A stretch of 64,000 nucleotides of DNA from a virus. The notes beneath the pieces are model-generated. The model saw only the letters and a list, made by a program, of their open reading frames with translations, was not told the origin of the DNA and did no database searches. Shown in pieces: positions 1,044-63,719 of the stretch. Positions within the stretch are counted from its first letter, which is position 1, and each line of letters begins with the position of its first letter. Location of the stretch: the IMG/VR virus record IMGVR_UViG_3300030329_003041, positions 1 through 64,000 of that record, one strand, 5' to 3'. The translations under genes and the position numbers were made by a program.

Positions 1044-1088
1044 GTGACACTAGGCTGTTAAATAAGTAGAATAACAGGCTAATGTCAC
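1044..1088. promoter_or_regulatory. Palindromic operator-like element, copy 1
   Basis: The left arm GTGACACTAGGCTGTTA (1044-1060) and right arm TAACAGGCTAATGTCAC (1072-1088) are reverse complements at 15 of 17 positions, separated by 11 nt. The same arms recur at 2745-2787 and 60972-61015 with nearly the same spacing. The size and near-perfect dyad symmetry suggest a binding site for a dimeric regulator or a conserved RNA hairpin. It sits between the minus-strand genes ending at 1111 and starting at 936. Confidence 0.65.
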
Positions 1089-2224: not shown

Positions 2225-2476
2225 TTATTTAGACTCCACTTGATGTTCTCTCGCCCATGTCGGCAAGTTATTAGTGTTGGTGTAGTTTTTATACTTGTTC
2301 CAACACGGCATTGCCTCGAGTTTCTCTTTGTTGGCATTGTACACCGCGTCGTGATCGTAGGTGAACGAGTTGCCTTTCTTGTTAGTGAATGTGATGATCG
2401 CCTTTTTACCGATCAATGTCTTACGCATAACGAATCGATTAGTAGTCATGCTGTTCAATGCTGCCTTCTTAGCCAT
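2225..2476 (-). CDS. Small basic paralog family protein, copy C (83 aa)
   Basis: Third member of the paralog family, with a 9-residue N-terminal extension (MAKKAALNS) before an internal Met that aligns with the start of the other two copies. The core RFVMRKTLIGKKAIITFTNKKG and the C-terminal NTNNLPTWAREH are conserved. Copy C uses more GC-rich codons than copies A and B, which may reflect a separate history or recombination. It is expressed from promoter P6 (2515-2546), possibly helped by P7. Confidence 0.7.
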   Translation of the reverse strand: MAKKAALNSMTTNRFVMRKTLIGKKAIITFTNKKGNSFTYDHDAVYNANKEKLEAMPCWNKYKNYTNTNNLPTWAREHQVESK

Positions 2477-2641: not shown

Positions 2642-2701
2642 CGAAATGGGGGGCTGGGCTAAAATATTTGACTTTTGATAGTCGTTGTCACTTTGTGAGA
2701 A

Positions 2702-2716
2702 GGGGTGCAGCACCCC
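2702..2716. other. GC-rich perfect hairpin in the divergent region
   Basis: GGGGTGC-A-GCACCCC is a perfect 7-bp inverted repeat in otherwise AT-rich DNA. The right side is followed by TATATTTG (2722-2729), which matches the Bacteroidota -7 consensus TAnnTTTG, so a host-type rightward promoter may start here. No convincing -33 TTG was found at the expected distance. Confidence 0.35.
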
Positions 2717-2744
2717 GGTTCTATATTTGTAATAACTTTTTATA

Positions 2745-2787
2745 TGACATTAGGCTGTTAATAAAGAAGAGTAGTAGGCTACTGTCA
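2745..2787. promoter_or_regulatory. Palindromic operator-like element, copy 2
   Basis: TGACATTAGGCTGTTA, an 11-nt spacer, then TAGTAGGCTACTGTCA. It is the least symmetrical copy, but it keeps TAGGCTGTTA on the left, AGGCTA and TGTCA on the right, and the same spacer as copy 1. It sits directly upstream of the plus-strand late block, a suitable place to control it. Confidence 0.6.
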
Positions 2788-4143: not shown

Positions 4144-5706
4144 ATGGAGTACAATAACCCTTCTCAGCTCATAAAAGAGTTGAATTTTGGCCAAAATGCC
4201 AAATCTAAGATTGCAAGTGGCGTAAATAAGCTTGCAAAAGCAGTAAAATCGACGCTTGGAGCGTCGGGAAAGTGTGTGATTTACGAAGATGCACGAGGAA
4301 ATCCAGTAATTACTAAAGATGGTGTGACAGTAGCGGAAAGTGTAGTACTTTTTGATCCAATTGAGAACATCGGAGCAACGATGATCAAGGAAGCTGCTAA
4401 AAATACCGTAAAAGAGGCTGGTGACGGAACTACAACTGCCACTGTTTTAGCTGAAGCTTTGTTAAGTAGTATTTCTAAGCATAGCGATGGACCTATTAGA
4501 GCTCTAAAAAATGGTGTTAATTCAGGTTTAAAGAAGATTAATAAATATTTAGATGAAGTCAAGATCGAAGTAGCAGACGAGAAGCTAGCTAACGTCGCTG
4601 CTATCTCTTGTAACAACGATTCTGAGCTAGGTGATATTATAGCTGAGGCCTACCAGAAAGTTGGTAAAGATGGTGTTGTGCTTATGGAAGAGTCTCCAAC
4701 CGAGGATACTTACGTTGAGGTTGTTGATGGAGTACAATTTGAATGTGGAGTAACATCACCGCACTTCATCACAAATACAGATAAGCAGAAAGTTGAGCTT
4801 GAGCAGCCACTTGTTTTAATATGCATGTCTGAAATACCTAATATACGTAAGATTCAGAACATCTTAGAGTATGTTATTAAAAACAACCGATCTTTACTTA
4901 TTGTAGCGGCAGTAAGTCAGCAAGTAAAATCGGCGCTGCTCATGAATAAAGTAAAAGGTAACATTAAGGTTAATATTGTAGATCTACCTGGTTTTGGTCC
5001 TACTAAGAAAGATACATGTGAAGACTTAGCCATATTAACAGGGGCTACGGTTGTAAATGAGGAGCTAGGAGACGATCTTGACCTTATAGATGTCGAAACA
5101 CTAGGGGAAGCTGAATATGCGACCACAGATGACAGATATACAGTTCTAACGGTTGATTCTGATACTGAAGCTGTAGAAGAAAGAATCAAACAAGTTAGTA
5201 AGCAAATAAAAGATGAAAAGAATCAGTACATTAAGAAAAAGCTTCAAGAGAGGTTATCTATGCTTTCTGGTTCGGTTGGAGTTATCAAGGTTGGCGCAGA
5301 TTCTAAGATTGAACTTAAAGAGAAGAAAGACAGGGTTGAAGATGCGATATACGCTGTTAAAGCTGCTCTTAAAGAAGGGATTGTTCCGGGCGGAGGTATT
5401 GCATTACTTAATGCTTCTCAAAAAATCGAACCCACTAACGTGGGTGAAAGAGCTATTATTGAAGCTATACAATCGCCTTTCAAAACAATAATGTCTAATG
5501 CAGGTCTAGAACCTCAAACTGTATCGGGTGAAGGTTTAGGCGTTGATGTCGTCACAGGTGATATTGTTGACATGGTCAATGCTGGTATTATCGATCCAGT
5601 TCTCGTAACAAAGTCTGCACTCAAGAACGCTGTGAGTGTAGTTACAACTATAGTATCAGCGGACTGTGTAATCTCAAACGCAAGAGCAGATGAAAGCAAT
5701 CAATAA
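4144..5706 (+). CDS. groEL: Phage chaperonin GroEL (Cpn60)
   Basis: A full-length group I chaperonin of 520 residues (about 545 is usual). ATP-site motifs are present: STLGASGK near 36-43, TKDG at 57-60, GDGTTTAT at 93-100 and GIVPGGG near 412-418, with an Asp in DRVEDA before it. The apical domain is recognisable ([26 protein letters not shown]). The Gly-Gly-Met C-terminal tail of cellular GroEL is absent, and the protein ends NARADESNQ. The gene overlaps groES by 17 bases, implying coupled translation and a dedicated folding machine, most plausibly for capsid or other large virion proteins. The start follows a terminator and an AT-rich leader (TTTAATTTAATAAA). Confidence 0.95.
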
Positions 5707-5947
5707 CTATTTAGTAGTAGATAAGATCAAAGAAGAGCAACGTAAGGTTGCAGGTCTTATAATGACAGAGGATTTAGATGATGACAATAGGTACTTAAAG
5801 GCTAAGGTAATATCAGCTGGTAATCTAGTTGAAGCTGTAGCTGAAGGTGATATGGTTTACTATGATAAACATGCTGGTCACGGAATACAATGGCAAGATA
5901 AACTTTATTTTGTCATTAGATCAAGTGATATTGTATTAGTAGATTAA
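5690..5947 (+). CDS. groES: Phage co-chaperonin GroES (Cpn10)
   Basis: 85 residues, short for GroES (about 97). It has the N-terminal beta strand ([10 protein letters not shown]), a mobile loop with the GroEL-contacting hydrophobic triplet (AGLIM at 21-25), AKVISAGN, and the C-terminal strand FVIRSSDIVLVD. The roof hairpin is reduced. The start codon lies inside the end of groEL, so the pair is translationally coupled. It would cap the GroEL ring during folding of phage or host proteins. Confidence 0.85.
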   Translation: MKAINNYLVVDKIKEEQRKVAGLIMTEDLDDDNRYLKAKVISAGNLVEAVAEGDMVYYDKHAGHGIQWQDKLYFVIRSSDIVLVD

Positions 5948-58197: not shown

Positions 58198-58230
58198 AAT
58201 AAAATAAATAAGGGTTAATAATTACAATTT

Positions 58231-58262
58231 ATTATCTGCTACTGGTCGTATTTAGTTTGTGA
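58231..58262 (-). promoter_or_regulatory. Phage promoter motif, copy P9
   Basis: Minus strand: TCACAAA-CTAAATACGA-N9-GATAAT at standard spacing. It lies between the exonuclease gene (stop at 58266) and the SSB start at 58197, driving the SSB-primase operon. Confidence 0.75.
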
Positions 58263-59571: not shown

Positions 59572-60324
59572 TTAACTTAGATACTCCGACAGTTTAGAGT
59601 AATCCATTACTTGCTTTAATTTTTCAATAGCTTGCTTTTTTAATTGCGATACTCTAACATAAGAACTTGCTCCTCCTATATTTAATATCTCAGCTATTTG
59701 TTTTGCAGACTTTTTTTTACAGCCAAGTCCAAAGCTATATCTTATAATGTGAAATTCTTTATCAGTAAGATGCTTCATCATTATTTTTAATATTTTCTGG
59801 TGTAAGACTTCTATTTTTAATGGATCTGTAGATTTATCTTCAATCTGCATATACATATTGTCTCCAACCTTTTCATCTATACTAATAAACATAGAGTTGT
59901 AAAACATTGCTTGTTTCTCTTTATCATGCTCAAATCCTTTTCGTATATCATTCAACTTATGTTCTGGTATACGCATTGCAGAGCGATTAATATCTGTACC
60001 TCTTCGTATTGCACCTCTTATACGTTTAGCGAAAAATGATTTAATAGTTTTTTCTGGGTCGTCAGACTCAGTTATTATTTTACTATCCCATCTGTCCACA
60101 GCTTTTATAAGACCAGCATTACCAATGCTAATTAAATCGTCTATATTCATTATTCCAGACGCAGCATCAGAAGTTGAGAATTTTCTAGCAATATTTTCAA
60201 CTAACGGTAAAAACTTTATTATTAATTCATCACGAGTATATTCATCCCAAAATTTACCTTCAGGTTGATTTGATCGTATGTCTTTTTTATACCTACGATA
60301 ATTTTTACTGTTGTGATTTCTCAT
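59572..60324 (-). CDS. Phage sigma-70-family sigma factor (250 aa)
   Basis: Region 2: FLPLVENIARKFSTSDA with IMNIDDLISIGNAGLIKAVD and RWDSK. Region 3-like segment: RGTDINRSAMRIPEHKLNDI. Region 4: LTDKEFHIIRYSFGLGCKKK with SAKQIAEILNIGGASSYVRV as HTH. At 250 residues this is a small sigma factor. It could direct host RNA polymerase to the phage-specific TCACAAA/ACGA/GATAAT promoters. It lies 25 bases downstream of the HTH gene stop, in the operon from P10. Confidence 0.85.
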   Translation of the reverse strand: MRNHNSKNYRRYKKDIRSNQPEGKFWDEYTRDELIIKFLPLVENIARKFSTSDAASGIMNIDDLISIGNAGLIKAVDRWDSKIITESDDPEKTIKSFFAKRIRGAIRRGTDINRSAMRIPEHKLNDIRKGFEHDKEKQAMFYNSMFISIDEKVGDNMYMQIEDKSTDPLKIEVLHQKILKIMMKHLTDKEFHIIRYSFGLGCKKKSAKQIAEILNIGGASSYVRVSQLKKQAIEKLKQVMDYSKLSEYLS

Positions 60325-60348: not shown

Positions 60349-60978
60349 TTACAATAATAGTTGCTGATTTAATAATTCTTTTTCTTTTTTAAGTTCGTTA
60401 CACATTCGTCTATGCACAGTTCGAGTTGTGACGTTTAATATATCAGAGATGCGTTGTATCGTGATCTTTTTGTTATCGTGATTAAGTTGTATCATAATAT
60501 CATAAACGTCATCAGAACTGATCTTTTGAGACCGCCCAATTAATTTACCTACAATACTTAACTTCTCTTCTTTAGTTAAAATACTATGCCATTTAAAAAT
60601 AACTTTACGAGACTTATTAACAGGTGGTTGATCAAGGTCGCACATGCTAACATCGTACACTATATTTTCTAAAGTGTTTTTAGGTATTTTAAAACTAACA
60701 AATCCATATTCCATCTTAACGATGTCTTCTGCTAAATATCTAAAATCATCCATAGTTAGTTGAGGGTTTAAATACCATATAACTAATAGATGCCATTTTA
60801 AAGACTTGTAAGTATTTATTTTAGCTTTAGATTGAAACAGTGAATAACATTGATGAGTACCATTTTGGTAATACATGTAATCATGTGTATCTATGTCAGG
60901 TACATCAGTTATTGGATTTCTTTTATAAACGATGCGCCTATCATCTAACAGCTTTAATCTTCTTTCAAACTGTGACAT
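60349..60978 (-). CDS. HTH transcription regulator (209 aa)
   Basis: The C-terminal ~40 residues (ITIQRISDILNVTTRTVHRR with KEKELL) form a helix-turn-helix. The N-terminal 130 residues have no recognised domain (aromatic- and Cys-containing). Its ATG (60978-60976) sits inside a palindrome (60972-61015) that recurs at two other control regions, so it is a strong candidate for the protein that binds the palindrome and represses its own synthesis. The sigma-factor gene follows. Confidence 0.6.
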   Translation of the reverse strand: MSQFERRLKLLDDRRIVYKRNPITDVPDIDTHDYMYYQNGTHQCYSLFQSKAKINTYKSLKWHLLVIWYLNPQLTMDDFRYLAEDIVKMEYGFVSFKIPKNTLENIVYDVSMCDLDQPPVNKSRKVIFKWHSILTKEEKLSIVGKLIGRSQKISSDDVYDIMIQLNHDNKKITIQRISDILNVTTRTVHRRMCNELKKEKELLNQQLLL

Positions 60979-61015
60979 AAGCCTGTTATTATTATAGCTA
61001 ACTAGCTATTGTCAC
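60972..61015. promoter_or_regulatory. Palindromic operator-like element, copy 3, over the HTH start codon
   Basis: GTGACATAAGCCTGTTA (60972-60988) and TAACTAGCTATTGTCAC (60999-61015), complementary at 13 of 17 positions with a 10-nt spacer. On the minus strand the right half reads TAACAGGCTTATGTCACAG, almost identical to copy 1, and its ATG is the HTH start. Binding here would block translation and transcription. Confidence 0.7.
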
Positions 61016-61123
61016 ACTGTTGGTAGCTGGTTTTAATGTATAAAGGATGATCCTTTTTCCTTTATCATTCTTGAATTTAATTTTATTAAATTCTTTGATT
61101 CGGTTTTTTAAATTTGGTTTCAT
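60998..61123 (-). CDS. Possible basic leader peptide (41 aa)
   Basis: An ATG at 61123, seven bases after the GATAAT of P10, opens a 41-codon Lys-rich frame (MKPNLKNRIKEFNKIKFKND) ending at TAG in the palindrome spacer. If the transcript starts at P10 it would be nearly leaderless. It may be a regulatory leader ORF or chance. Confidence 0.3.
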   Translation of the reverse strand: MKPNLKNRIKEFNKIKFKNDKGKRIILYTLKPATNSVTIAS

Positions 61124-61129
61124 ACTGGT

Positions 61130-61161
61130 ATTATCTATTGGTGTTCGTATTTAGTTTGTGT
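61130..61161 (-). promoter_or_regulatory. Phage promoter motif, copy P10
   Basis: Minus strand: ACACAAA-CTAAATACGA-N9-GATAAT at standard spacing; the first base is the only deviation. It is upstream of the HTH-sigma-ERF-exonuclease operon. Confidence 0.7.
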
Positions 61162-63661: not shown

Positions 63662-63687
63662 ACTTTATTTAATTTAAATTCATAGTT

Positions 63688-63719
63688 ATTATCTGTTAGT
63701 AGTCGTGTTCAATTTGTGA
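63688..63719 (-). promoter_or_regulatory. Phage promoter motif, copy P11
   Basis: Minus strand: TCACAAA-TTGAACACGA-N9-GATAAT, standard spacing, followed by the conserved TATGAATTTAAA leader seen at other copies. It overlaps the end of the gene at 63709-63882 and drives the operon starting at 63661. Confidence 0.7.

Follow-up and report, generated by a model that had tools for sequence, protein, structure and literature searches.

The window, a stretch of 64,000 nucleotides (positions 1 to 64,000) of the virus record IMGVR_UViG_3300030329_003041, carries late structural genes on the plus strand from position 2804 on and small early genes on the minus strand at 60-2476 and from 61161 on. The full record has a length of 65,794 b and may be incomplete. 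A replication operon on the minus strand is headed by a gene for an HTH protein, which is followed by the genes for a sigma factor, an Erf-like annealing protein, an exonuclease, and a primase-helicase. A GroEL gene (4144-5706, phrog_5725) and, after it, a likely GroES gene (5690-5947) lie at the start of the late operon. The terminase places the record among the tailed phages, as kin of MW202828, of Flavobacterium elemo and Cellulophaga phages, and of Tenacibaculum phage Gundel_1, and the host of the virus is probably to be sought among flavobacteria. The palindromes and the genes around them are as follows:

1045-1087, plus strand: copy 1 of the palindrome, between the minus-strand genes 694-936 and 1111-1329
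1111-1329, 1801-2019, and 2225-2476, minus strand: three paralogous genes encoding proteins of 72-83 aa, each preceded by a promoter-like motif
2745-2787, plus strand: copy 2 of the palindrome, at the early/late divergence, ahead of the first late gene (2804/2830)
59572-60324, minus strand: sigma-70-like factor, the next gene in the HTH operon, with the genes for the Erf-like annealing protein and the exonuclease after it
60349-60978, minus strand: HTH protein of 209 aa with HTH_11 near its C-terminus (residues 160-191), the candidate cognate regulator
60973-61014, minus strand: copy 3, an operator-like imperfect palindrome over the ATG of the HTH gene (60976-60978) and the stop codon of the upstream small ORF
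60998-61123, minus strand: small ORF of 41 aa that precedes the HTH gene and ends within copy 3, its stop codon being 19 nt ahead of the HTH ATG

The three imperfect palindromes, 42-43 bp in length, have the form TGACANNAGNC ... GNCTNNTGTCA. The pattern used to search the window, TGACANNAGN{22,28}CTNNTGTCA, has exactly three matches there, compared with a mean of 0 and a largest number of 0 in 100 dinucleotide-preserving shuffles, and a fourth copy of the palindrome was not found in the whole 65,794-b record. Copy 1 is the top-ranking inverted repeat of the window. All three palindromes had been proposed in the original prediction at 1044-1088, 2745-2787, and 60972-61015, the slightly longer limits being explained by G/A and C flanks, and the ATG of the HTH gene does lie, as had been proposed, within copy 3. 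Copies 1 and 2 had also been described as the two ends of a left control region; their positions are correct, but the DNA between them is not empty control DNA and contains the three minus-strand paralogous genes. The first of these paralogs (1111-1329) has no match in Pfam or PHROGs.

The HTH protein matches the Pfam domain HTH_11 with an E-value of 4.4e-6 (26.9 bits against a cut-off of 25), and its predicted structure is confident (pLDDT 91). No significant sequence or fold match was found for the protein in PDB, where its conserved N-terminal domain is likewise unmatched. A fold search with the model of the protein gave one viral match. No PHROGs family matches it, and no homology to known antitermination proteins and no fold match to Rep proteins were found. 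Among 50,697 phage records, no relative from an isolated phage was detected at E<=1e-5, and looser searches gave chance-like matches only, save for the N-terminal domain of a protein from the elemo phages. At least 454 relatives were found in one scan of environmental contigs, and a literature search revealed nothing on this HTH regulator. A TGA was reported inside the homologs G010, G014, G016, G025, and G030; their local alignments have no internal stop, and the TGA may be the terminal stop codon.

The palindrome and the HTH gene are paired across relatives. The palindrome was found at the same place in four of the first four relatives with full flanks, then in 55 of 55, and finally at the gene start in all 114 distinct HTH homologs having upstream DNA (42-100% identity). 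At the 18 fixed positions, 82 of these 114 sites have no mismatch and none has more than three; the ATG usually lies within the right arm. Conversely, a scan of viral contigs for the palindrome alone yielded at least 120 stretches, nearly all of 41-45 bp, and 35 of the 37 records fetched solely for the palindrome encode the HTH protein. A gapped pattern was used in place of a strict one (GGCT and fixed spacing), which matched none of six records. One to four sites each are present in 46 of 48 near-complete related records, whereas the reversed control pattern gave no match. The pair of palindrome and HTH protein is present in a large uncultivated phage group. In six sister isolates (MW202828 and five others) that lack a close HTH homolog, no palindrome was found. 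Some site-bearing records have no visible HTH gene (e.g., G017 and G040, of 50.5 and 50.7 kb), and all of these may be fragments. Because all site-bearing genomes belong to one phage group, the co-occurrence of the site and the HTH gene partly reflects shared descent; in the fetched loci, the sigma-factor gene co-occurs with the site nearly as tightly. An origin of the motif in host chromosomes was ruled out by an exhaustive scan of bacterial genomes (one genome for each of 84,980 species): real copies were found only in seven MAG contigs, all with phage-type sites and four of them with the HTH gene as well, and the other matches appear to be GC-rich, terminator-like chance hairpins.

Two promoter-like motifs accompany these sites. 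The first is a 33-bp repeat, TCACAAA-N6-ACGA-N2-A-N5-AGATAATA, that occurs on the minus strand only, in ten close copies and a weak one, and is a candidate for the early promoter of the phage. The second is found next to copy 2:

1370-1402, 1538-1570, 1675-1707, 2045-2077, 2514-2546, 2609-2641, 58230-58262, 61129-61161, 63687-63719, and 64870-64902 of the record, minus strand: close copies of the early promoter-like repeat, before early genes
2666-2698, minus strand: weak copy of the same repeat
61129-61161, minus strand: the close copy upstream of the 41-aa ORF and the HTH gene, the probable early promoter of the operon that comprises the small ORF, HTH, and sigma-factor genes
2709-2731, plus strand: late promoter-like motif with the consensus AACACNATACTCCTATATATCTA (score 22), ending 13 bp before copy 2

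The late motif at copy 2 includes TATATTTG, which resembles the Bacteroidetes -7 element with the consensus TANNTTTG (PMC6847099). A AACACNATACTCCTATATATCTA motif precedes 67% of 55 oriented non-HTH sites and 0-4% of control flanks, although it was trained on the very flanks where it was scored; it mostly ends 9-30 bp ahead of the site. When the sites are oriented by their TTAC arm, most non-HTH sites lie between early minus-strand genes on the upstream side and the late operon on the downstream side, as copy 2 does. Kin of the three paralogs at 1111-1329, 1801-2019, and 2225-2476 adjoin most of the early/late junction sites in relatives. Copy 1 belongs to a second group of sites, which are found among the early paralogs and have no comparably strong promoter-like motif; copy 1 itself forms the strongest predicted hairpin and is flanked by A/T runs. 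The third group has no member in the window and is located, in some relatives, between the major capsid gene with its terminator and the next gene. This capsid-side site is cleanly present in 23 of 78 relatives and cleanly absent in 55, and its distribution requires at least six changes on the gene tree, three of them forced by well-supported branches. Thus, sites come and go, with the one at the HTH gene as the exception, and three related phages that have the HTH gene and lack the capsid-side site indicate that not every site is needed. We considered whether the contigs with a site after the capsid gene represent a different phage lacking the HTH gene and rejected this possibility; the structural genes are common to both, and three long relatives of these contigs have the HTH gene. 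In those of the loci L328-L407 that carry it, the capsid-side palindrome lies about 30-80 bp before position 1501.

The palindrome has two inverted half-sites with the consensus RTGACAWTAGCCTNTTA, which together span about 42-44 bp. Across 160 non-redundant sites, 90 at HTH genes and 70 elsewhere, both arms keep TGACA, A8, and G9 with few or no exceptions and strongly prefer C10 and C11, followed by TTA further in. The spacing between the half-sites varies by 1-3 bp, which is awkward for a rigid dimer. All 86 genes with the ATG in the arm have TCA as their second codon, compared with 23% of 1066 other serine codons of the same genes; as start codons were chosen with a preference for ATGTCA, the former count is slightly circular, and its unconditional floor is 86 of 97 genes. 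Small ORFs resembling the 41-aa one precede the HTH gene in relatives, and the left arm falls into differing reading frames of these ORFs (L011 among them). The invariant TCA at codon 2 and the differing frames of the left arm together show that the constraint acts on the nucleotides and not on the protein. The covariation between the recognition helix and the arms, proposed earlier as a check, is uninformative: TGACA and G9 on one side and R186, T187, and R190 of the putative recognition helix on the other hardly vary, if at all, among homologs with identities as low as 42%.

The same sites reveal no selection for RNA pairing. In the conserved arms of the 160 sites, no compensatory change between arm positions was found, and a slight excess of pairing is seen only at positions -6 and -7, within the A/T flank. 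Complementarity of the arms falls below the shuffled expectation at position -3 (both classes of sites, p<=0.001), at position 13 (p<=0.007), and, among the non-HTH sites, at position 17 (p<=0.007), where the effect is partly due to the fact that the sites have a real direction, with the TTAC arm on the side away from the promoter. The arms hardly ever pair at position 6, where the mismatch is A.A, U.U, or C.A. When right halves were exchanged between sites, the native RNA folded more weakly than the resulting chimeras in 60 of 60 resamplings, both for the HTH sites (-14.6 vs -15.6 kcal/mol) and for the non-HTH sites (-16.0 vs -18.1 kcal/mol); shared ancestry weakens these fold counts as well as those of complementarity, which are strong but not final. 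Since the arms lack compensatory pairing and the native folds are the weaker ones, the functional form of the palindrome is most likely duplex DNA and not an RNA hairpin or terminator. Selection against self-pairing would have a simple reason, in that an operator in transcribed DNA must neither become a terminator nor mask a start codon; translation in Flavobacterium is reduced when the start codon is part of a structure (PMC6847099). Operators located in transcribed DNA can bear a signature of selection against self-pairing, by which DNA operators can be told from RNA hairpins from sequence alone.

These data bear directly on an alternative in which the palindrome acts as RNA, that is, as a 5'-terminal hairpin of the late and HTH transcripts serving as a terminator, an antitermination element, a processing site, or a translational switch. 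As regards a switch, the HTH start codon lies within the 3' arm, and the hairpin could be opened when the small ORF is translated. The site is probably within the transcript, with the TTAC arm distal to the promoter-like motif in most sites; T runs often follow the right arm, the three copies fold at -10 to -24 kcal/mol, and start-codon structure is known to tune translation in Flavobacterium (PMC6847099). Nevertheless, we regard this alternative as unlikely. Besides the missing compensatory changes, the mismatches favored at several positions, and the weaker native folds, the varied type of the mismatch at position 6 argues against a fixed internal loop, and at the sites downstream of the capsid gene the TTAC arm is on the opposite side relative to the gene.

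The explanation that we consider probable, judging from sequence comparisons, is that the palindrome is a duplex-DNA operator of the HTH protein, which would autoregulate the replication operon and act on the late operon as well. The phage very likely encodes a regulator protein with a control site of its own and a further control site at the transition to the structural genes. Autoregulation appears well supported: the protein has a DNA-binding domain, and a conserved operator-like site marks its gene and recurs at other control points. The HTH protein itself is likely to be a repressor. The operator would be bound by this protein, presumably as a dimer or as two dimers. Binding at copy 3 would curb expression of the HTH gene itself and of the downstream sigma-factor and replication genes, in the simplest way as a roadblock to RNA polymerase that has initiated at the early promoter, some 130 bp upstream. 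Bound to copy 2, the protein would occupy the beginning of the late transcription unit, past the promoter-like motif, and would hold back the structural operon until the right time. Copy 1 may be an auxiliary site, e.g., for DNA looping. We infer both repression as the direction of the effect and its timing; the location of the late site downstream of a promoter-like motif fits repression and allows other modes of action.

The original prediction had taken the shared palindrome as a sign of an autoregulated phage repressor. The presence of the palindrome at all 114 starts strongly supports its link to the HTH gene, and the sites at late-operon starts in relatives fit an autoregulated phage DNA-binding protein with other targets. 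In contrast, the role of a lysogeny (CI-type) repressor is not supported: no integrase and no match to tyrosine or serine recombinases (PF00589, PF00239) were found in the 65,794 b of the possibly incomplete record, the gene heads a replication operon beside a sigma-factor gene, and the protein has neither a PHROGs family nor a significant PDB match. The lambda CI/Cro class comprises autoregulated phage repressors with several operators. The system described here shares with this class an HTH DNA-binding protein, an operator both at its own gene and in another promoter region, and inverted half-sites. It differs in that (i) the site covers a start codon in a transcribed region instead of lying between the divergent promoters of a lysogeny switch, (ii) the operator is much longer (42-44 bp) and no recombinase was found, and (iii) the protein combines an HTH_11-type domain with an N-terminal domain that has no PDB match.

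Two further alternatives retain DNA as the functional form. The operator could be bound by a protein other than the HTH protein, of host or phage origin, with the HTH gene as just one of its targets; the nearly equal co-occurrence of the sigma-factor gene with the site would be in line with such a binder. We find this quite improbable, as the restriction of real copies to seven MAG contigs in the scan of 84,980 species makes a host regulator unlikely and the invariance of the site at the start of the HTH gene itself is typical for autoregulation. Even less probable is that the HTH protein binds the site without being a plain repressor, either loading on or modifying RNA polymerase in the initially transcribed region or activating late transcription together with the phage sigma factor. 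The late site does lie close downstream of a conserved promoter-like motif, and the HTH and sigma-factor genes adjoin; however, no homology to known antitermination proteins was found, and the copy over the protein's own start codon fits simple autorepression. Lambda Q acts on RNA polymerase in the initially transcribed region near its late promoter. Late regulators of this type resemble the HTH protein in having a site beside a late promoter and in acting on the late operon, whereas no relation in sequence or fold was found, and the palindrome described here is present at the regulator's own start codon as well. Finally, that the palindrome is a REP-like small mobile element spreading in these genomes mostly without a regulatory role can practically be dismissed: the patchy capsid-side site (23 present, 55 absent, at least six changes on the gene tree) would suit such an element, but its position at the HTH start is constant in all 114 homologs, copies are few (1-4 per genome in 46 of 48 records), and none occurs outside this phage group.

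The Rep class of plasmid and phage replication initiators, which bind an inverted repeat at their own gene, offers a further comparison. An inverted repeat at the gene, autoregulation, and a gene heading the replication operon are common to both, whereas this phage has a primase-helicase of its own and the HTH protein has no match to a Rep fold. No iterons were noticed. The regulator family and its operator are new; the kind of system is known. A more far-reaching proposal, which is possible though doubtful, is that the protein belongs to a novel family of phage timing regulators whose N-terminal domain has not been described before. Such a regulator would read a 42-44-bp operator inside transcribed DNA, over its own start codon and directly past the late promoter; selection would keep the DNA site and break the RNA hairpin, so that the transcript would neither terminate nor conceal the start codon. 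Its target may be moving RNA polymerase, with the neighboring phage sigma factor as a partner. The transcription programs of Bacteroidota podophages are little described, and a regulator-operator pair combined with candidate early and late promoter motifs makes the early-to-late switch directly testable.

The one similarity to a protein of an isolated phage concerns the Flavobacterium elemo phages (MT497078.1, 30004-30870; L317:8866-9732). A divergent, regulator-like protein of about 289 aa is weakly similar there to the N-terminal domain of the HTH protein (E 7.5e-4, hhalign probability 83%) and shows no similarity to its C-terminal domain. The gene for the elemo protein is located at the early/late junction of these phages, and the MT497078 genome lacks the palindrome.
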